Assembly: GCF_009708215.1 (NCBI RefSeq)
Contig: NZ_CP046175.1
Coordinates: forward strand, 4,464,001 to 4,528,000
From: Occultella kanbiaonis
GTDB lineage: Bacteria > Actinomycetota > Actinomycetes > Actinomycetales > Beutenbergiaceae
Direction of reading: 5' to 3'
Length of the DNA stretch: 64,000 nucleotides
The notes below the pieces were generated by a model. It did no database searches. It saw only the letters and a program-made list of their open reading frames with translations, and was not told where the DNA came from. Shown piece after piece: positions 16,605 through 56,493 of the stretch. The translations under genes were made by a program, and so were the position numbers. Every line of letters starts with the position of its first letter. Position 1 is the first letter of the stretch.

Positions 16605-16670
16605 CCCCCGGCCCCGGCCCCCGCCCCCGGCCCCCGGCCCCGGCCCCCGGCCCCGGCCTCGGCCCCGCCC
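16605..16670. repeat. Low-complexity CCCCGG-type tract
   Basis: About 66 bp built almost only of C4-6/G2 units (imperfect CCCCGG and CCCCCGG repeats), directly after the SRPBCC gene. It may be a slippage-prone spacer. No coding function is visible in the rest of 16586-16848. Confidence 0.7.
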
Positions 16671-41685: not shown

Positions 41686-44406
41686 GTGACGCTCCTCGGC
41701 AGGGCGGCCGAGCAGGAGACGGTGTCCCGCCTCCTGGCCTCGGCGCGCCTGGGCAGCGGCGGGGTGCTGACGATCATCGGCGAACCGGGGGTCGGCAAGA
41801 CGTCGCTGCTCACCGAGGCACTCGCCGGCGTCCCGCCCGGCGACGTCCGCGTGCTCCGGGTCACGCCCGCCGAGGCCGAGGGGAACCTCCCGTTCGCGGC
41901 GCTGCACGCGCTGGTGCTACCCGCGCTGCCGCTGCTCGATGACATCCCGGCCCCGCAGGCCGCAGCCCTGGGGACCGCGCTGAGCCTGCGGCACGGTGGC
42001 GGCCCGGACCGGTTCGCCATCGGCGCCGCGACGCTGAGCCTGCTCTCCCGCTACGCCGATGACGGGCCCGTCGTCGTGGTGCTCGACGACGTGCAGTGGG
42101 CGGACCAGCCCTCCGTCGACGCCGTCGCGTTCGCAGCCCGCCGGGTGCGCAACGACCCGATCGCGATCCTGATCGCGGGACGCAGTGCCGAGGTGCCGGA
42201 GCCGGTGCGGGGGCTGCCCACGATCGAGCTCGGTGGCCTGTCCCCCGAGGCCGCGGCGCAGCTGCTGGAGGAGGCGTTCGGCTCGTCGGACCGGCGTCGC
42301 GACTCCGACGGTCTGTACCGCTCGACGGGTGGGAACCCGCTGGCGCTGCTCGAGCTGGCCGGCGAGCCGAATGCGGGCGACGACGGCGGCGCCGGCCTGC
42401 CGCGGACGCTGCCCGACCGGCTGCAGCGCACCTTCGCCCGACGCCTGGAGGCGCTCACCCCGGACGAGCGCACCGTCGCGATGGTGGCCGCGATGGCCGG
42501 TGACGACCTTCGGCTCACCCGCGCGGCCTGCGGCCGTCTCGGCGTCGACCCCGCCGGACTGGACGGTGCCGCCGGGGCCGGCCTGCTCGCCGTCGACGGC
42601 GGTCACGTGACCTTCCGGCACCCGCTCCTGCGCGCGGCCGCCTACGGCTCCGCGCGCCCGGACCTGCGGCGACGGGCCCACCTCGCGCTCGCCGACGAAC
42701 TCGCCGGGGTGGACGCGGACCGGCACGCCTGGCACCTGGCCGCGGCCACGACCCAGCTGGACGAGTCCGTCGCCGCGCTCCTGGCCGAGCTCGGCCGCCG
42801 GGCAGGAGTGCGCACCGCGTTCACGGTCGCCTCCACCGCCTTCGAGCGGGCGGCGCGGCTGAGCCCGGACCCCGGTGACAGTCACGACCGGCTGATCGCC
42901 GCCGCGCACGCGGCGTGGGCCGGCGGGCAACGCGTTCGGGCCCTGGCCCTGCTCGACGAGGTGGAGCCGCCGAGCGGACCCGCGACCGCGACCGGCACCG
43001 AGCTACGGGCCACCATCGCGGTGCGCTCGGGCTCCGCGCGGGAGGGCCTTGGCCTCCTCGAGCGCGCGGCCGATCTGGCCGACCCCGACCAGCGCGTCCT
43101 GATCCTGGCCCAGGCCTGGCACGCCTGCATGTATCTCGCCGACACCGGCGCCATGCGGCGGATCGACGCGCGGCTCGCCGCCGCGCTGCCGTTCGCGACG
43201 GACCCCGTGGCCCGCGCCGTCGGGCTGGCCGCGTCCGGGACCGCGGGGGTGCTGCTCGGCCGGGACAGCACGGTCCTGCTCAGGGACGCCGTGTCACAGC
43301 TGGCCGACCACGTCGACCCGCTCGCGCACCCGGCGGCACTTCCGTGGCTGCTGCTGGCGCCGTTGTTCCTGCGGGACGCCGACGGCGGCGGCGAGCTGCG
43401 TACCCTCGTGGACCGGGTGCGGGCCCGGGTCGGTGTCGGAGCCCTGCCGAACCTGCTCTTCCACGTGGCCCGGGACCAGGCGACCACGAACGCCTGGGAC
43501 CGGGCGGCGGCCAACTACGACGAGGCGGCCCGGCTGGCCCGGGAGACCGGTCAGGGTGGCGAGCTGGCGATGTCGCTCGCGGGGCTGGCCTGCCTGGAGG
43601 CACGCTCGGGTCGGGCAACACAGTGCCGTGAGCACGCCGCGGACGCGCTGGCGCGCTGCCAGGAGCGGTCGATCCGGTTCGGGGAGATCTGGTGCGAGCT
43701 CGCCGTGGGCGAGCTCGCCCTCTCCGAGGGCAGGTCGGCCGAGGCCGTGCAGCGGCTCGGTGCCGTCGCGGCCCGGCTCGACGAGGACGAGGTCGGCGAC
43801 CCCGATCTGCATCCCGGGCCGGATCTGGTCGACGCGCTGCTGCGGACCGGTGACGCCGGCGCCGCGGCAGAGCGGGCCGGCGCGTTCGCGGCCGCCGCCA
43901 CCGTGAACGGCCGGCCCTGGACCCTCGCGCGGGCCGACCGTGCGCTCGGTCTGATCGCCGCCGAGGATGACTTCGAGGCCCATTTCGCCTCCGCGCTGGC
44001 GCACCACCGGCACACCCGGGACGAGTTCGAGACCGCGCGGACCCACCTCGCGTACGGGATGCGGCTCCGCCGGGCCGGGCGCCGGGTCGACGCCCGCGCG
44101 TCCCTGCGGGCGGCACTGGCGTCCTTCGACGAACTGGGCGCGCGGATCTGGGCGGCGAACACCCGGACCGAGCTGGAGGCGACCGGGGAGCACGTGCCGC
44201 CGCGCGAGGCCGCCGGCCCCGGTGCGCTCACCCCCCAGGAACTCCAGGTGTGTCTCCTCCTGGCCGAGGGCCGGACCACCCGGGAGGCCGCGGCCGCCCT
44301 CTTCCTGAGCCCGAAGACGATCGAGTACCACCTGCGCAAGGCCTACACGAAGCTCGCGATCCACTCCCGCGACGAGCTCGCCACGGCCCTGCGCGACGCC
44401 GGCTGA
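41686..44406 (+). CDS. LAL-type LuxR family regulator with AAA ATPase
   Basis: 906 residues. An N-terminal NTPase domain has Walker A GEPGVGKTS (32-40) and Walker B VVVLDDVQW, then winged-helix and TPR-like helical repeats, and a C-terminal LuxR helix-turn-helix (about 845-900; LTPQELQVCLLLAEGRTTREAAAALFLSPKTIEYHLRKAYTKL). This is the large ATP-binding LuxR class that often controls nearby catabolic or secondary-metabolite genes. No obvious target lies beside it. The start GTG lies 6 nt after TAGACT, so the transcript may be leaderless. Confidence 0.92.
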   Translation: MTLLGRAAEQETVSRLLASARLGSGGVLTIIGEPGVGKTSLLTEALAGVPPGDVRVLRVTPAEAEGNLPFAALHALVLPALPLLDDIPAPQAAALGTALSLRHGGGPDRFAIGAATLSLLSRYADDGPVVVVLDDVQWADQPSVDAVAFAARRVRNDPIAILIAGRSAEVPEPVRGLPTIELGGLSPEAAAQLLEEAFGSSDRRRDSDGLYRSTGGNPLALLELAGEPNAGDDGGAGLPRTLPDRLQRTFARRLEALTPDERTVAMVAAMAGDDLRLTRAACGRLGVDPAGLDGAAGAGLLAVDGGHVTFRHPLLRAAAYGSARPDLRRRAHLALADELAGVDADRHAWHLAAATTQLDESVAALLAELGRRAGVRTAFTVASTAFERAARLSPDPGDSHDRLIAAAHAAWAGGQRVRALALLDEVEPPSGPATATGTELRATIAVRSGSAREGLGLLERAADLADPDQRVLILAQAWHACMYLADTGAMRRIDARLAAALPFATDPVARAVGLAASGTAGVLLGRDSTVLLRDAVSQLADHVDPLAHPAALPWLLLAPLFLRDADGGGELRTLVDRVRARVGVGALPNLLFHVARDQATTNAWDRAAANYDEAARLARETGQGGELAMSLAGLACLEARSGRATQCREHAADALARCQERSIRFGEIWCELAVGELALSEGRSAEAVQRLGAVAARLDEDEVGDPDLHPGPDLVDALLRTGDAGAAAERAGAFAAAATVNGRPWTLARADRALGLIAAEDDFEAHFASALAHHRHTRDEFETARTHLAYGMRLRRAGRRVDARASLRAALASFDELGARIWAANTRTELEATGEHVPPREAAGPGALTPQELQVCLLLAEGRTTREAAAALFLSPKTIEYHLRKAYTKLAIHSRDELATALRDAG

Positions 44407-50185: not shown

Positions 50186-50785
50186 TCAGTGGGCGCGGCG
50201 ACGCAGCGCCGTCAGCAGATCCGAGAGCGCCGGGGCAGGGTCGGCATGCACGGCGTCGGTGTCGGTGCGGTAGCGGTGCACCCGCAGCCGCCCGTGCACC
50301 CTCGTGGTGTCCTCGGTCCACTCCGGGAGCCGGACCAAGTCACCGACGGCGCGTGGGTCCACCGCGGTCCGAGTGGCGGTGGTGGCGCCGGAGGCGTCCG
50401 TGGTGAGCGTGACGTCGCGCAGCTCACCGGTGCGGAGCAGCCAGAACTCATGGACCTGACGCGAGGCGTCCGCTCCGAGGCGCGCGCCCTTGTTGTCGGT
50501 GACGAAGTGCTCCTCCACCAGGGCGGTGGTCACCCGCCAGCCGCCGATGGGTTCCCGGCGTTCCAGGGTCGGGACCAGCACGGACTCGCCGAGTTCGTGC
50601 CACCCGAACTGCTCGGCAGCACGCGGTGCCCGGTACTCCTGGGACACCCACTCGTCCTGCGGCACCCGGGCCGCCTCCAACTCGTGCGCGACCTTGCGCG
50701 CGAACGCGAGCACATGAGTGAACGCGACCGGGTCGTTCGGCTCCGCCGCGGTCAGATCGCTGGGTTGTTCGACCGTCTCCGACAT
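50186..50785 (-). CDS. Conserved hypothetical protein
   Basis: 199 residues, no domain I can name. It begins MSETVEQPSDLTAAEPNDPV and is soluble, with a beta-rich middle (HEFWLLRTGELRDVTLTTDASGATTATRTAV) and a basic C-terminus. The ATG at 50785 follows AGGAGG, a strong ribosome binding site that decides the start. It lies downstream of a pair of 61-bp repeats. Confidence 0.7.
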   Translation of the reverse strand: MSETVEQPSDLTAAEPNDPVAFTHVLAFARKVAHELEAARVPQDEWVSQEYRAPRAAEQFGWHELGESVLVPTLERREPIGGWRVTTALVEEHFVTDNKGARLGADASRQVHEFWLLRTGELRDVTLTTDASGATTATRTAVDPRAVGDLVRLPEWTEDTTRVHGRLRVHRYRTDTDAVHADPAPALSDLLTALRRRAH

Positions 50786-50884
50786 GACGCCTCCTGCTGT
50801 GGTGGCTCCACTTTCGAGTCTCCCACAGGGGCGCCCACGGCGCAGGTCGCTCCTGCCCAGGCGGCGTGGCTCGCCGGGCGCCTC

Positions 50885-50945
50885 GTTCCCCTGACTCGAA
50901 AGGCGGGTCGCGTGCACAACCATCGACAGTTCACGTCAGCGGAAC
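50885..50945. repeat. 61-bp palindromic direct repeat, copy 1
   Basis: Begins GTTCCCCTGACTCGAAA and ends GTCAGCGGAAC, so the ends are inverted repeats (11 bp with one mismatch). The middle includes GCGGGTCGC and CCATCGACAGTTC. Copy 2 is 74 bp downstream. It lies in the intergenic region before the hypothetical gene. Confidence 0.85.
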
Positions 50946-50958
50946 CCCCGGGCGCCAC

Positions 50959-51019
50959 GTTCCCCTGACTCGAAAAGCGGGTCGCATGCGGAGCCATCGA
51001 CAGTTCGGGTCAGCGGAAC
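50959..51019. repeat. 61-bp palindromic direct repeat, copy 2
   Basis: Same 61-bp element as copy 1 with about 7 differences. Its last 10 bp cover the stop codon of the 2-phosphosulfolactate phosphatase-like gene, so the element has been recruited into that coding end. Confidence 0.85.
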
Positions 51020-51834
51020 GGATCGGCCGGGACGAACCCATGGCCCTCGGCGAGTGCGCCGGCGAGCAGGGGGACGACGTCGGATCCGCCCACCTCGGCG
51101 GCGATACGCACGTCCTCGGCGTGGCCAGCGGCGATCAGTTCGCGCCCGCTCGCAAGGTCGGCCAGCAGCGCCGGCCAGCCGGCGCCGTCGGCCGCGGCGC
51201 GCGCCTCGAGAAACGCAGCCCGGGCCACCCGCGCCTCGGGTGAGCACACCCCGGGCGCACCTGCCGACGCGGCCGCACCACCGCCGTCGGGCAGTTCCTC
51301 GGCGACGGCGTCGATCACGGCACCGGCGCCCCAGAGGTCCTCCACCGCCGGGCGCAGCGTGTCGTCCGGCCACCGCTCACCGGCCGCGACGACCAGGATG
51401 CCGACGCCTCGGCTGGCGGCCCACCGACCGACCGCGGTCGCGTTGCGCAGGCAGCCGGCCAGCACCTGCGCGCCTGCGGACTGCAGCGAGAAGGAGATCG
51501 TGGCGCCGTTCGGTGACGGCAGCACGACGCGCCGGACGCCCTCAGCGCTGCGCAGGGAACCGGGGGCGAGGGTGATCCGGCCGGGTCCCGCCTCGTCCCG
51601 GTGGACGGCGAGTTCGGCGTCGTGGCGCAGGGCGTACTCGGCGGCGTCGGCACGCGCCCAGGGGTAGGGCAGCACCGTGATGCCGCGGTCCGCGGCCACC
51701 GAGACGGCAGTGCTGAAGCTCAGCACGTCCACCACCACCGCGATCTCGCCGGGCCGGATCAGCGCCGCCCCGGCCCGGCCCCACTCGAAGCGGACGCGAG
51801 CACCCGCCTGGGTGTGGCCGGCGTCGGGAGTCAT
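51010..51834 (-). CDS. 2-phosphosulfolactate phosphatase family protein (ComB-like)
   Basis: 274 residues with the ComB pattern: FEWGRAGAALI, VVVDVLSFSTAVSVA, LPSPNGATISF, VLAGCLRNATAV and VVAAGERW. In methanogens ComB removes phosphate from 2-phospho-3-sulfolactate in coenzyme M synthesis. Actinobacteria do not make coenzyme M, so the real substrate here is unknown. The ATG overlaps the MFS stop by 4 nt. The repeat copy 2 forms its C-terminus. Confidence 0.85.
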   Translation of the reverse strand: MTPDAGHTQAGARVRFEWGRAGAALIRPGEIAVVVDVLSFSTAVSVAADRGITVLPYPWARADAAEYALRHDAELAVHRDEAGPGRITLAPGSLRSAEGVRRVVLPSPNGATISFSLQSAGAQVLAGCLRNATAVGRWAASRGVGILVVAAGERWPDDTLRPAVEDLWGAGAVIDAVAEELPDGGGAAASAGAPGVCSPEARVARAAFLEARAAADGAGWPALLADLASGRELIAAGHAEDVRIAAEVGGSDVVPLLAGALAEGHGFVPADPFR

Positions 51835-53063
51835 AGGATCCCGGCCCGACGGCGGGTGGTCCGGTTCGCGTGCACGGACCAGCGGGGCACCCAGCGCCAG
51901 AGCGCGAGCGCCGCCACGGCGCCGAGAGCGCCCATCGTCCCGATCCCGGCCGCGAGGGACCCGAGCGCCGTGCCGGCCGAGACCACGAGCGGGCCGGAGG
52001 CGCTGCCGGAGTCGGAGAACAGCCGCCAGATGCCGAGGTACTGCGCACGTTCACCCGGTGGTGCGGTGTCCGCGCCGAGCGTCATCAGGATGCCGGAGCC
52101 GATGCCGTTTCCGAAGCCCATGATCATGGCGACGATGCTGACACTGACGAGGCCGTCGGTGAAGGTCAGGGCGATCATCGCGGCGCCCATCACGAGCATG
52201 GACGGGATCGCCACCCAGAGCCGGCCGTACCGGTCCATGACCTTGCCGGCGGGGTAGAACAGGAGCATGTCGATGGCGCCGGAGATTCCGAACACCAGGG
52301 CGGTCGCGGAGGGCTCGAAGCCGAGGTGCTCGGTCCACAGCGGCAGCACCGTCTGGCGGGCGCCCCGGACCGCGCCGATGAGCAGCACGGCGACGCCGAG
52401 GGTGCGGAACACGGGCAGGTACTCGCGCAGCACGGCCCGCATCGGGCGGCGCGGCGCGGCGTCCCGGGCGGCCACGGTGCGCTCGTGGGCCACCTCCGGC
52501 GCGACGATCACCACGATCGCCGCGGCCAGGGACGTGCCCACCCCGAGCCAGTAGGCGTTCGCGGTGTCCGCGCCGCCGTGGATCAGGGCGGCGCCGGCGA
52601 ACGGGCCGATGAACAGACCGATCCGAGCGACCCCGCCGAGCGTGGACAGCGCCCTGGCCCGGCGCAGCGGGTGGATCACCTCGGTCAGGTAGGACTGCCT
52701 GGCGAGGGTGTAGACGGAGTTCGTGGCCCCGACCAGCAGCACGCCCGCACCGATCACGATGAGGTTGGGTGCGAGAGCGAGGGTGGCCATGCCGGCCATC
52801 GCGACGATCGAGGAGCCGATCATGGCCTTGCGGTCGCCGAACCGGGCCGCGAGCATCCCGGCGGGCACGTCGGCGAGGATCTGCCCGATCGGCAGCAGGG
52901 CGGCCACCAGGGCCGCGGTGGCCAGGTCCGCGCCGAGGCCGATCGCAGTGACGGCGATCAGCGGCAGCATCGCCCCGACGCCGATCTCGAACAGCAGCGA
53001 GGGCAGGTACACGCCAGGGATCATCGTCCGCAGGGACGTGGTGTGTTCGGGGGTCGGTGTCAT
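51831..53063 (-). CDS. MFS transporter
   Basis: 410 residues, 12 membrane helices. The A-loop AGMLAARFGDRKAMIGSSI and the second-half loop AGKVMDRYGRLWVAIPSML are standard MFS_1 features. It is of the drug/metabolite efflux type, substrate unknown. The ATG at 53063 is used; the frame extends to a GTG at 53084. It is first in a two-gene unit with the ComB-like gene. Confidence 0.9.
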   Translation of the reverse strand: MTPTPEHTTSLRTMIPGVYLPSLLFEIGVGAMLPLIAVTAIGLGADLATAALVAALLPIGQILADVPAGMLAARFGDRKAMIGSSIVAMAGMATLALAPNLIVIGAGVLLVGATNSVYTLARQSYLTEVIHPLRRARALSTLGGVARIGLFIGPFAGAALIHGGADTANAYWLGVGTSLAAAIVVIVAPEVAHERTVAARDAAPRRPMRAVLREYLPVFRTLGVAVLLIGAVRGARQTVLPLWTEHLGFEPSATALVFGISGAIDMLLFYPAGKVMDRYGRLWVAIPSMLVMGAAMIALTFTDGLVSVSIVAMIMGFGNGIGSGILMTLGADTAPPGERAQYLGIWRLFSDSGSASGPLVVSAGTALGSLAAGIGTMGALGAVAALALWRWVPRWSVHANRTTRRRAGIL

Positions 53064-53346
53064 CGCGGGGCCATCGTCTCGCACCCGGATGGCCGGGCGC
53101 AGAGGGGGTCATTGGTCAAGACGGGTGGCGCGACGTGGCCACCAACGCCGCGGCGACATGCGATCCCAACCCACCGAGCTGAGGTCATGATGCCGCGTGT
53201 CCGGGGTGCGCTCCCACGTGCGCGGGCCTAGATTGGGTCCGGGGCAGACAGGCTGCGGATTACATGCCAATGCCCGTCGGCTCACGCTCGATTCCAGCCA
53301 CTAGTCTTTGTGGATATTCAGAAATCTGGGGGAATGAGATCAGCCG

Positions 53347-55119
53347 ATGAATTCGGTGTGGGGACGAAGGGCCCTGCGCGCCGTCTGGGACTGCTTCAGT
53401 TGGGCGACCGCCGTTCTACTCGTGGTCGGGGCGCGGTACGACTTCACCCTGCCCGATGACCTCTGGGCCTCGGTCGGTTGGTACGTCGCTGCGGCCTGCG
53501 TGCTCCAAGTCGGCGTCGGCACCGCGCTCATGCTGTATCGGGGCCGCTACAGGACCGCGAGCTTCGACGAGTCGATCGGTATGGCGGTCACCGCCGTCAC
53601 CGTCGGGGCGCTCTTGGCGATCAGCTTCGTGGTGCTGCTCGGCTCATCGTTCCCCCGCGCCGTAGCCGTCTTGACCCCGCCCATCGCACTGCTCTTCATG
53701 GCCGCGGGCCGCTGGATGTATCGGGCGAGCACCAGCTGGCAGAAGAACGCCCGGGTGCGCAACAAGCGGGTGCTCATCTACGGAGCTGGGGATGCGGGGC
53801 ATCAGTTGATCCGGCTGATCGCCACCGACGACGCGACCCAATACCGAGTGGTCGGATTCATCGACGACGACAAGGCCAAGAGGAATCTCAGGTTGCTGGG
53901 CGTGCCGGTGCTCGGCCGCCGCGAGCACCTCCTTGATGTCGCGGCGAAGGCCGGTGCCCGCACGGTGATCTTCGCCGTTACGAACGCGGACGCCGCGACG
54001 ATCCGGGAAGTCTCCGACCTGGTCCTTGGTGGCGGGCTCAAGTTCCTGGTGCTGCCGCCCCTGACCGATCTGATCGGTGGGCGCGTCCGCCTCAGCGATG
54101 TCCGGGAGGTCGAGGTGAGCGACATCCTTGGGCGGCGTCAGATCAAGACCGACATCGACTCGATCGCCGGCTACCTGACCGGGCGTCGGGTGCTGATCAC
54201 GGGTGCTGGTGGTTCGATCGGATCCGAGCTCGCGCGGCAGGTACACCGGTTCGGTCCCTCCGAGCTGACCATGCTCGATCGCGACGAGTCCGCGCTGCAC
54301 GGCGTCCAGCTCTCGATCTACGGGCAGGGCCTGCTCGACACGCCTGACGTGGTGCTCTGCGACATCCGCGATGAGGACGCGCTGCGAAAGGTGTTCGCAG
54401 CCCGGCGCCCGGAGGTCATCCTCCACACCGCCGCGCTCAAACACCTGCCGATGCTCGAGCAGTACCCGGAGGAGGCGTGGAAGACGAATGTCCTGGGAAC
54501 CCTCAACGTGCTCCGGCTCGCGGATGAGTGCAGCGTGCGACAGTTCGTCAACATCTCCACGGACAAAGCGGCCGATCCCAGCAGCGTCCTCGGCCACACG
54601 AAACGGATCGCGGAACAACTGACGGCGTGGCAGGCGGCGCGGGCCGATGGCACGTACCTGTCGGTCCGGTTCGGCAACGTGCTCGGCTCGCGCGGATCCA
54701 TGCTGCACACGTTCAGCGCTCAGATCGCCAAGGGCGGGCCCGTCACGGTCACGCACCCCGAGATCACGCGCTACTTCATGACGATCCCCGAGGCATGTGA
54801 GCTCACGATCCAGGCCGCCGCGATCGGACGCGGCGGTGAGGTCCTCGTCCTGGACATGGGCGAACCGGTCAGCATCCTCGACGTCGCCAAGCGCATGATC
54901 GCGAACTCCGGCAAGCGGATCGACATCGCGTTCACGGGGCTTCGCGACGGCGAGAAGATGCACGAGGTGCTCATCGGGCGGGAGGAGGCCGACGCCCGGC
55001 CGTTCCATCCCCTGATCACGCACGTCCCGGTGCCGCCGGTGGCACCGGAGGACCTGCCTACGGCCCATTCCCCCGGTGCTCCGGAGGCCGTCGAGCATCG
55101 CCGCCCGCTAGTCACCTAG
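53347..55119 (+). CDS. pglF: Polysaccharide UDP-GlcNAc 4,6-dehydratase, PglF/WbpM-like
   Basis: 590 residues. Four N-terminal membrane helices (to about residue 125), a CoA-binding-like Rossmann domain (YGAGDAG near 146), then the catalytic domain with NAD motif GAGGSIGSE (286-294), HTAALKHLP, NISTDKAADPSSVLGHTKR and FGNVLGSRGSM. It makes UDP-4-keto-6-deoxy-GlcNAc at the membrane. The active-site position that is Tyr in most SDRs and Met in characterised PglF/WbpM is Leu here (LGHTK). It is separated from pglE by about 2 kb of other genes. Confidence 0.9.
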   Translation: MNSVWGRRALRAVWDCFSWATAVLLVVGARYDFTLPDDLWASVGWYVAAACVLQVGVGTALMLYRGRYRTASFDESIGMAVTAVTVGALLAISFVVLLGSSFPRAVAVLTPPIALLFMAAGRWMYRASTSWQKNARVRNKRVLIYGAGDAGHQLIRLIATDDATQYRVVGFIDDDKAKRNLRLLGVPVLGRREHLLDVAAKAGARTVIFAVTNADAATIREVSDLVLGGGLKFLVLPPLTDLIGGRVRLSDVREVEVSDILGRRQIKTDIDSIAGYLTGRRVLITGAGGSIGSELARQVHRFGPSELTMLDRDESALHGVQLSIYGQGLLDTPDVVLCDIRDEDALRKVFAARRPEVILHTAALKHLPMLEQYPEEAWKTNVLGTLNVLRLADECSVRQFVNISTDKAADPSSVLGHTKRIAEQLTAWQAARADGTYLSVRFGNVLGSRGSMLHTFSAQIAKGGPVTVTHPEITRYFMTIPEACELTIQAAAIGRGGEVLVLDMGEPVSILDVAKRMIANSGKRIDIAFTGLRDGEKMHEVLIGREEADARPFHPLITHVPVPPVAPEDLPTAHSPGAPEAVEHRRPLVT

Positions 55120-55162: not shown

Positions 55163-55204
55163 GGGCCCGTGTGGACACATCCAAGGACATGTCCACACGA
55201 GCCC
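55163..55204 (-). terminator. Hairpin terminator for the repeat-peptide gene
   Basis: GGGCCCGTGTGGACA (55163-55177) pairs with TGTCCACACGAGCCC (55190-55204), one mismatch, 12-nt loop. On the minus strand it is followed by CCTTTGTCTT, so it terminates the repeat-peptide gene and, from the other side, pglF. Confidence 0.8.
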
Positions 55205-55217
55205 ACGACCCGAAGGG

Positions 55218-55499
55218 TCAGATCAGTTCGTCGCCCCACCCGTTGCGGATGAGCTCATCGCCCCAGCCCGCACGGATGAGCTCATCGCCCCAACCGTTGC
55301 GGATGAGTTCGTCCCCCCAGCCCGCACGGATGAGCTCATCGCCCCAACCGTTGCGGATCAACTCGTCGCCCCAGCCCGTGGCGACGGCGTCGTCGGATTG
55401 CGTGGCAGCGATGGCCGCGGGTCCGACGGCGACGAGTCCGAGTGCGGTCGCAGCTGCGACGACGGCAACTCGGAATCTCAGACGGAAGGTCTTCTTCAT
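55218..55499 (-). CDS. Secreted tandem nonapeptide-repeat protein (possible peptide precursor)
   Basis: 93 residues. A clear signal peptide (KKTFRLRFR, hydrophobic VAVVAAATALGLVAVGPAAIA, cleavage near AIA-AT) is followed by ten residues and then six tandem copies of a nine-residue unit, GWGDELIR with alternating N or A before the G. The unit boundary is Arg, except at the end, so trypsin-like cleavage would give NGWGDELIR and AGWGDELIR. The copies differ at synonymous sites yet keep the same amino acids, so the peptide sequence is under selection. Strong AAAGGAG ribosome binding site. I know no family with this repeat; function unknown. Confidence 0.85.
   Translation of the reverse strand: MKKTFRLRFRVAVVAAATALGLVAVGPAAIAATQSDDAVATGWGDELIRNGWGDELIRAGWGDELIRNGWGDELIRAGWGDELIRNGWGDELI
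55221..55382 (-). repeat. Six 27-bp tandem repeats inside the peptide gene
   Basis: Six units of 27 bp, arranged as alternating N and A versions (54-bp super-repeat). Codons for Asp, Glu, Leu, Gly and Arg vary between units, but the encoded GWGDELI is constant. Confidence 0.95.
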
Positions 55500-55650
55500 A
55501 TTCAGGCTCCTTTAGACGGGGTAAGGCGCGGGGTATCCACAAACGTGGCTTGCACGATCAAATCTACCCCAGCCCTCCCGTCGGAGCGACCCCTCCGTAT
55601 CACACTGGGCGGGTGAATCACCAACCGGCGTGACGCCGGCCGAGGGTGAC

Positions 55651-56493
55651 TCAGGCGATCGGTTCCTCCTCGGGCGACGACTCCGCGTCGGGCCCACTCG
55701 CCGCGGTCGGCCCGACGGCGACCACCTCGATGTCGGTCTCGTCCAGGTGCGGCGAACTCTGCTGCCACTCGTGACCCTGTGGCGGGACATCAGTCTCGGA
55801 GTGGGCGCCGCAGCCGTGGTCGAGGGCTACGACCTTGCCGTCATCGGGCGACCACTCGTTCGCGCAGACCCCGAACACGGTGCCGAGCGACCCGGCGATC
55901 CGCACGATGAAGCCACACTCGGCGCAGTTCGCGCCGGCAGCCTTGGTGCCCGCCGTATCCGGACCCTGGGAGCCCGCGTACCACCGGCTGGCCGCGGCAT
56001 CGATGGCCTTGCGGTTCATGACCCGGTCGCGTCCGAGACCCAGTTCCGCGATCGCGATCCGGTCTTCCTCAGGGTCCCCGGTGGCCAGGTAACCGGGCTC
56101 GAGCCGCTCGTCCTCGGCCACGTACGGAAGCCGGTCGGTCGGCCCGAGGTCGCCGGGTGCCAGTCGGTCGGCCCACGGGAGCCAGGCGGGGGCCAGCAGG
56201 GCGCCGTCGCCCGGCAGCAGTCCGCTCTCGCAGACGGTCGCGGTCCGGGACCGCGAGATCCGGGACACGGTCACGTACCAGCGCCAGCCCTCGTAGCCGG
56301 GCGAAGTGGCCGCGAAGTAATGGGTCGCGAGTCGGTCCGCCTCCAGCACCATGCCGAGGTGGTCGCCGACGTCCTTCGCGCCTCCTTCGAGCAGTGCCTC
56401 GCGGGCCTGGTCGACGGCGGCTGCGAGGACGGCGTCCTTGGCAGGCCGGCGTGCGCTGGTGGTCGTTGAGGGCACGGTGAAGGTCTCCGTCAT
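55651..56493 (-). CDS. DUF3027 domain protein
   Basis: 280 residues, actinobacterial DUF3027. Typical parts are DHLGMVLEADRLATHYFAATSPGYEGWRWYVTVSR, LLAPAWLPWADRLAPGDLGPTD and a Cys-containing GANCAECGFIVRIAGSLGTVFGVCANEWSPDDGKVVALDHGCGAHSETD that may bind a metal. Function unknown; usually found beside a cold-shock gene, as here (5 bp apart). The C-terminus is acidic. Confidence 0.88.
   Translation of the reverse strand: MTETFTVPSTTTSARRPAKDAVLAAAVDQAREALLEGGAKDVGDHLGMVLEADRLATHYFAATSPGYEGWRWYVTVSRISRSRTATVCESGLLPGDGALLAPAWLPWADRLAPGDLGPTDRLPYVAEDERLEPGYLATGDPEEDRIAIAELGLGRDRVMNRKAIDAAASRWYAGSQGPDTAGTKAAGANCAECGFIVRIAGSLGTVFGVCANEWSPDDGKVVALDHGCGAHSETDVPPQGHEWQQSSPHLDETDIEVVAVGPTAASGPDAESSPEEEPIA

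Follow-up and report, generated by a model that had tools for sequence, protein, structure and literature searches.

The locus considered here raises the question of what is encoded by a small gene of soil actinobacteria whose product consists, beyond a Sec-like signal peptide and a short linker, of six copies of the heptapeptide GWGDELI. The gene lies in a 64,000-nucleotide stretch of DNA (hereafter the window) from the genome of Occultella kanbiaonis, which is a single contig of 5.65 Mb. The gene, its parts and the two genes that mark its chromosomal slot are as follows.

51831 to 53084, minus strand: MFS transporter gene, the downstream marker of the slot
55163 to 55204, minus strand: terminator-like hairpin of 19 pairs (terminator scan and RNA fold)
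55218 to 55499, minus strand: peptide gene, 93 aa, ATG to stop (ORF call)
55221 to 55376, minus strand: six GWGDELI cores with RN/RA spacers
55356-55376, 55329-55349, 55302-55322, 55275-55295, 55248-55268 and 55221-55241, minus strand: the individual cores
55377 to 55406, minus strand: linker ATQSDDAVAT between the signal peptide and the first core
55407 to 55499, minus strand: Sec-like signal peptide, residues 1-31, with a candidate cut between AIA and A (hydropathy and AXA scan)
55507 to 55513, minus strand: ribosome-binding site AAAGGAG, also conserved in an alignment of the Occultella leaders
55537 to 55548, minus strand: leader inverted repeat CCAC-N4-GTGG, its arms kept and its loop varied in four species
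55651 to 56493, minus strand: DUF3027 gene, the upstream marker of the slot

As originally predicted, the open reading frame was confirmed as a real gene: it has a ribosome-binding site, a Sec-like signal peptide and a terminator-like hairpin, and it is present in all four Occultella genomes searched (genus g1). The N-terminus of the protein comprises a basic n-region followed by a hydrophobic segment whose Kyte-Doolittle maximum over 12 residues is 2.34; the signal peptide was assigned by a simple hydropathy and AXA scan, in which the cut site after residue 31 is a candidate. The terminator-like site combines the 19-pair stem with a TTTGTCTT tail, and none of 200 shuffled sequences folded as stably (z -6.13). 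A simple sigma-70 scan revealed no promoter upstream of the gene. The CCAC-N4-GTGG repeat of the leader, which closely follows a -10-like TAGATT, may serve the peptide gene as a binding site for a regulator or as an RNA hairpin.

The cores are spaced exactly 9 residues apart, the stop codon directly follows the last Ile, and the array was recovered independently by Tandem Repeats Finder. The original prediction described a secreted protein of six identical nonapeptides; the secreted-type repeat protein and the six cores stand, while the array consists strictly of five GWGDELIR(N/A) nonapeptides and a terminal GWGDELI heptapeptide without R-N/A. The residues preceding the first copy are AT rather than R.

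GWGDELI is present in six copies in O. kanbiaonis (G000), O. aeris (G001) and O. glacieicola (G002), and in eight copies in O. gossypii (G003), where the two additional units preserve the alternation of RN and RA. Between the window gene and that of O. glacieicola the repeats differ at 23 nucleotides and at no residue (pS 0.64, pN 0.008), while pN in the signal peptide and linker is 0.125, which shows selection on the peptide and, together with the presence of the gene in the other species, excludes a chance origin. At the level of codon comparison, strong selection on the GWGDELI core between Occultella species is thus shown. Within the window gene the six cores exist in five DNA versions, with a pS of 0.646 versus a pN of 0.016; the latter small value stems solely from averaged paths between Leu codons, and its closeness to zero is partly by construction, because the units were selected for having the core. 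No such bias affects the comparison between species. The selection proposed in the original prediction is therefore borne out, with nonsynonymous change in the repeats far below synonymous change and with homologues existing in relatives.

A pattern search for the motif, as the original prediction had suggested, found it in 7 of 396 genomes of the order, all belonging to Occultella or to genus g8, and in 2 of 394 genomes of the class, both of them Occultella (the order and class samples overlap). Among the 24 genomes of the family, GWGDELI proteins were found in three g8 genomes, with five copies in G021 and four each in G015 and G017; the gene of G017 is cut by the contig end and hence lies outside the 14 complete genes described below. 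These g8 proteins have Gly-rich or similar spacers, such as NGGGGNQAL, QLNPGGSQVQ and NGGDGGVQTS, in which N or Q and never Arg follows the core. Further g8 genes carry related cores: four and three units of GGGDEELI type in G018 and G014, with spacers like SVPPRVSTQ or STPPQQSVQ, and a single C-terminal core in G016 (GADEEVI), G019 (GADEEVI) and G020 (GGDEEVI). In genus g7 the units are more numerous, with 15 copies of GGKDGDEFI in G013, 16 copies of GGKDGDEFI in G012 and 22 copies of GPKDGSEFI in G011. The layout of a multi-copy precursor is thus supported by the relatives.

The 14 complete genes contain 98 units whose last residues are [DSTE]E[LFV]I; as units were located by this end, any unit that had lost it is uncounted. 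Within each gene all units share the same last seven core residues, except for 2 of the 22 units in G011. The core varies from clade to clade yet retains (D/S/E)E(L/F/V)I, apart from one G011 unit with Thr before the Glu. Because g8 keeps GWGDELI but with other spacers, the seven-residue core is taken as the constrained element; the comparison indicates that the constrained unit is a heptapeptide core with a C-terminal Ile and not a nonapeptide. For the same reason the release of equal nonapeptides by a trypsin-like protease cutting after Arg, put forward originally, does not hold as a general mechanism: no Arg follows the g8 GWGDELI cores, and the spacers of G018 and G014 are of the SVPPRVSTQ/STPPQQSVQ type. 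Arg after the core was seen elsewhere only in genus g7 (RAAL), where one gene alternates RAAL with AAAF.

The repeat period also bears on the possibility of an RTX-like calcium-binding protein. The RTX consensus consists of tandem GGxGxDxUx nonapeptides, and the Occultella array has a nine-residue period with glycine and hydrophobic positions similar to it (x-G-x-G-x-acidic-x-hydrophobic-x); sub-threshold scores were obtained with RTX and calcium-repeat models (25.2 bits with a cut-off of 625, and 16.8 with one of 1000), and the ten plasmid matches listed, out of 110 records, included calcium-binding proteins with 39-47% identity. However, position 6 is Glu instead of Asp in all six window units, and four relatives scanned gave no NCBIfam match. 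The period is 9 in Occultella, 16-18 in complete g8 genes, 15-16 in G017 (as estimated from its spacers) and 10-18 in g7. Since relatives keep the core but lose the nine-residue period (periods 10-18), this reading was dropped and is extremely improbable.

In all 11 complete Occultella and g8 genes the core forms the C-terminus of the protein, and in the three g7 proteins (3/3) one residue (C, L or G) follows the last core. A Sec-like signal peptide, defined by a basic n-region, a hydrophobic stretch and AXA, is recognisable in 11 of the 14 genes, comprising all those of Occultella and g8; the three g7 leaders have no recognisable one, with hydropathy maxima of 0.78-1.50 and 0-1 basic residues before them. 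The putative kinship of the g7 genes to the others is based on position and the short core, and not on alignable leaders. These features are pertinent to a possible, if rather unlikely, alternative, namely an unprocessed flexible chain of short linear motifs binding one partner at many sites, acting as a sponge or as a multivalent ligand that is secreted or on the surface, with the prophage ORFs described below as single-site competitors. A conserved core with spacers free in length fits beads on a string equally well, the internal spacers share no common cleavage site, and g7 proteins without a recognisable signal peptide could act inside the cell. Against such a chain, the core is the very end of the protein in all 11 complete Occultella and g8 genes, as if a free Ile end mattered, and multivalency is not required, because three g8 genes are single-copy.

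The gene occupies a conserved chromosomal slot. For 22 of the 24 family genomes the DUF3027 locus was retrieved and the stretch behind DUF3027 read. Members of the slot occur in 15 of the 24 genomes (Occultella 4/4, g8 8/8, g7 3/3); among the other nine, no such gene was found in the eight readable slots, and G006 has no DUF3027 match. In g8 the peptide gene lies between DUF3027 and the MFS gene, all on the same strand. In the window a polysaccharide gene (53347-55119) on the opposite strand intervenes between the peptide and MFS genes, so that the surface-polysaccharide neighbour of the original prediction does adjoin the gene there. It falls outside the conserved neighbourhood of DUF3027 upstream and MFS downstream, however: the polysaccharide neighbour is absent from the g7 and g8 slots, and no polysaccharide gene separates the peptide gene of O. 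glacieicola from the MFS gene, which is reached within the 1.5 kb read. A functional link to polysaccharides was accordingly rejected. The MFS gene was likewise refuted as an obligate partner, as G005 has it beside DUF3027 but lacks the peptide gene, and the same holds for 2 of 26 slots of other families (41% identity). These 26 loci were fetched from among 54 other-family genomes having DUF3027, and none contained a motif-ending ORF or such repeats in the 1.5 kb downstream.

The DUF3027 proteins themselves (L085-L106, L129-L154) often contain a (I/V)DE(L/F/S)-like stretch, behind which comes an acidic tail rich in Ala and Pro whose length varies widely. The tail of DUF3027 was considered as a source of the motif and rejected, several tails having (I/V)DELD(I/L)EV-like residues and no copy of the core. 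Elsewhere in the window, a gene at 41686-44406, 11 kb from the peptide gene, encodes a 906-aa regulator with AAA_16 and LuxR-type (GerE) domains, which is not TPR-type. Two tandem 74-base copies with 88% matches (50874-51019) span the junction of genes 50186-50923 and 51010-51834, and a simple CCCCGG/CCCCCGGCCCCGG array is located at 16605-16667.

Multi-core precursors are common among RiPPs, and the gene could instead encode the precursor of another exported bioactive peptide (bacteriocin-like, metal-binding or RiPP) with no signalling role. The g7 layout, in which a leader without a signal peptide precedes 15-22 cores, looks RiPP-like. Against this, the 19 of 24 window neighbours scanned included neither a modifying enzyme nor an immunity gene, nor a dedicated ABC exporter. 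Graspetide- or lanthipeptide-type rings, which we take to need Ser/Thr/Lys/Cys chemistry, are excluded in Occultella and g8, because GWGDELI contains no Ser, Thr, Lys or Cys. Such a precursor thus appears improbable.

Two extra single matches to the motif, in O. glacieicola (G002) and O. gossypii (G003), proved to be the ends of 16-aa ORFs in prophage regions. The mini-ORF MFGFFFGLFGWGDELI is found at L065 of O. glacieicola and also in the viral contig L078, and MFRFFFGFLGWGDELI is found at L066 of O. gossypii. Both end in GWGDELI followed by the stop codon, have the ribosome-binding site GGAGGTGA before the ATG, and are followed by strong hairpins (z -3.46 and -3.55, 1 of 200 shuffles each). 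Contig L078 carries genes for terminase, portal, head and tail proteins, with an integrase at one end, and the phage genes of L066 include those for tape measure, minor tail and endolysin proteins. At L065, near a tRNA-Arg, the mini-ORF follows an HTH_17 (excisionase-like) gene, which is oriented divergently from an HTH_3 gene; the HTH_3 (repressor-like) assignment scored 25.4 bits against a cut-off of 23, and the CI-repressor model fell below its cut-off. At L066 no further phage ORF was seen between the mini-ORF and a tRNA-Thr. The final 24 nt are identical between the two mini-ORFs and match the terminal chromosomal copy of O. glacieicola at 23 of 24 positions, so the mini-ORF end is consistent with capture from a host gene. 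According to the motif pattern, such extra matches are absent from the window genome and from O. aeris; they occur in 2 of 4 Occultella genomes versus 0 of 392 other genomes of the order (Fisher p 8e-5, with relatedness ignored). That prophage genes share the host core suggests an undescribed peptide signal common to host and virus.

The mini-ORFs may alternatively be unrelated to the secreted peptide and represent Phe-rich leader peptides before a terminator, with host codons captured accidentally. E. coli pheL and pheM are Phe-rich leader peptides ahead of a terminator, and MF(G/R)FFFG followed by a strong hairpin resembles this arrangement. Yet both ORFs end in the exact seven-residue host core, the extra matches are confined to the genus with the chromosomal GWGDELI gene, and at L066 nothing except the hairpin lies downstream of the mini-ORF before the tRNA within the stretch read, leaving no gene to attenuate there. 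We consider this explanation quite unlikely. A DNA-level function was also rejected: GATGAGCTCATC, one common coding of DELI, is a perfect palindrome, but the codons vary and the genes with DEFI break the palindrome.

Searches beyond the family added little to this distribution. With a g7 protein as query, matches were found in 4 of 149 genomes, of which those in G011 and G012 are the known genes; the match in G000 is a frame full of stops and that in G144 (L157) a low-complexity frame, and both were rejected. The frame at L157, from an unrelated family, comprises 198 residues with SRGRAPLGGEDGG-type repeats. Among viral contigs the motif pattern occurred in seven, six of them with unrelated frames and one being L078, the O. 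glacieicola prophage; further patterns matched 13, 3, 1 and 0 contigs, and only L078 was relevant. Named phages gave one weak unannotated record with the repeats, and short partial matches in 100 records with the mini-ORF, none covering 80% among the matches listed (10 of 100). The FFFG pattern was present in 3 of 198 genomes of the order, with the mini-ORF only in O. glacieicola. The domain family DUF7620 (PF24596) was dismissed, as it scored 18.7 bits against a cut-off of 27 and neither of the two genomic members that passed the cut-off in 59 genomes has the motif at its end. Neither GWGDELI nor GWGDEL is mentioned in an open-licence collection of 5.39 million papers, and nothing on the gene appeared among the articles listed there on actinobacterial peptide pheromones, phage-borne pheromones and Ruania repeat peptides.

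Returning to the question of function, we put at about an even chance the proposal that the product is a multi-copy secreted propeptide whose short linear peptide acts outside the cell, most likely as a signal between cells. A constant core is repeated 3-22 times per gene, or present once in three g8 genomes, while the spacers vary freely in length and sequence. In the best reading, by analogy, the signalling peptide would end in -(D/S/E)E(L/F/V)I and work like the Phr or cCF10 pheromones. The propeptide would be exported via Sec and cleaved by signal peptidase; extracellular proteases would then cut the exposed spacers, in Occultella probably after Arg, and trimming would yield peptides ending in Ile, to be sensed by a putative receptor. 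If, as may be the case, this peptide is also released from the prophage ORFs, a prophage could feed, copy or jam the signal of its host, in the way that iCF10 from a plasmid competes with cCF10 from the chromosome. Counting against the signal-propeptide reading are the failure to find a receptor among the 19 of 24 neighbours scanned, the lack of a recognisable signal peptide in g7, the extra residue after the last g7 core, the basis of g7 kinship in position and short core, the three single-copy g8 genes and the occurrence of the prophage ORF in only 2 of 4 Occultella genomes.

A broader idea, which we hold only tentatively, is that these genes represent a peptide language of Actinomycetota with a clade-specific core and many copies per secreted precursor, and that a temperate-phage mini-gene with the exact core of the host reads, mimics or jams host density for the choice between lysogeny and lysis. 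As far as we found, such a language has not been described so far. The signals of Actinomycetota are typically enzyme-made small molecules, encoded oligopeptides being typical of Bacillota (PMC10075063), and those named are cyclic or modified peptides and butyrolactones (PMC4748050). If true, this would be a new peptide-signalling family in Actinomycetota, with up to 22 copies, clade-specific cores and prophage copies of the host core, and host-phage peptide crosstalk would be testable with short synthetic peptides. General handles for searches are offered by small genes in whose internal repeats the amino acids are conserved and the codons are not, and by mobile mini-ORFs ending in the same residues as such repeats.

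Among known systems, the gene was not filed under RRNPPA, RTX or graspetides, because each of these groups has a defining feature that was looked for here and not found (for RRNPPA and graspetides, among the 19 of 24 neighbours scanned). Fungal Kex2 repeat proteins have a dibasic cleavage site at each repeat, and no basic pair of this type is present in any listed spacer of Occultella, g7 or g8. The layout is otherwise like that of yeast alpha-factor and the fungal Kex2-processed repeat proteins in having a secreted precursor with repeated identical peptides and spacers (PMC5850478, PMC7329392). Unlike these, it belongs to a prokaryote, and the g8 GWGDELI spacers contain no Arg.

RRNPPA propeptides contain a mature peptide of 5-10 residues, usually C-terminal, which is imported by the oligopeptide permease and acts on a cytoplasmic receptor. 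Membership of this group is not claimed, because a TPR-type receptor was sought among 19 of the 24 predicted neighbours (40.3 to 64 kb) and was not found. In comparison with Rap-Phr, the present system differs in its Actinomycetota host, its up to 22 copies, its clade-specific acidic-hydrophobic core and the lack of an adjacent TPR receptor in the neighbours scanned, and it is known here from sequence alone. In Enterococcus, the cCF10/iCF10 and cAD1/iAD1 pairs likewise comprise a chromosomal peptide of 7-8 residues and a mobile-element product ending in the matching peptide; these pheromones derive from lipoprotein signal peptides and differ in sequence from the inhibitors (PMC7117660, PMC5552905). 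Unlike these, Occultella has a dedicated repeat-protein precursor in the host and an identical core in the prophage, with no PrgX-like receptor seen. Tandem pheromone copies, with up to eight reported, and phage-borne Rap-Phr systems are known in Bacillota, and that of phi105 has two identical peptide copies (PMC11343458). As in those Rap-Phr systems (PMC11343458), a small propeptide, with a Sec-like signal peptide in 11 of 14 genes, ends in a putative C-terminal peptide and carries internal copies separated by short spacers, the core is more conserved than the spacers, and phages carry it too.
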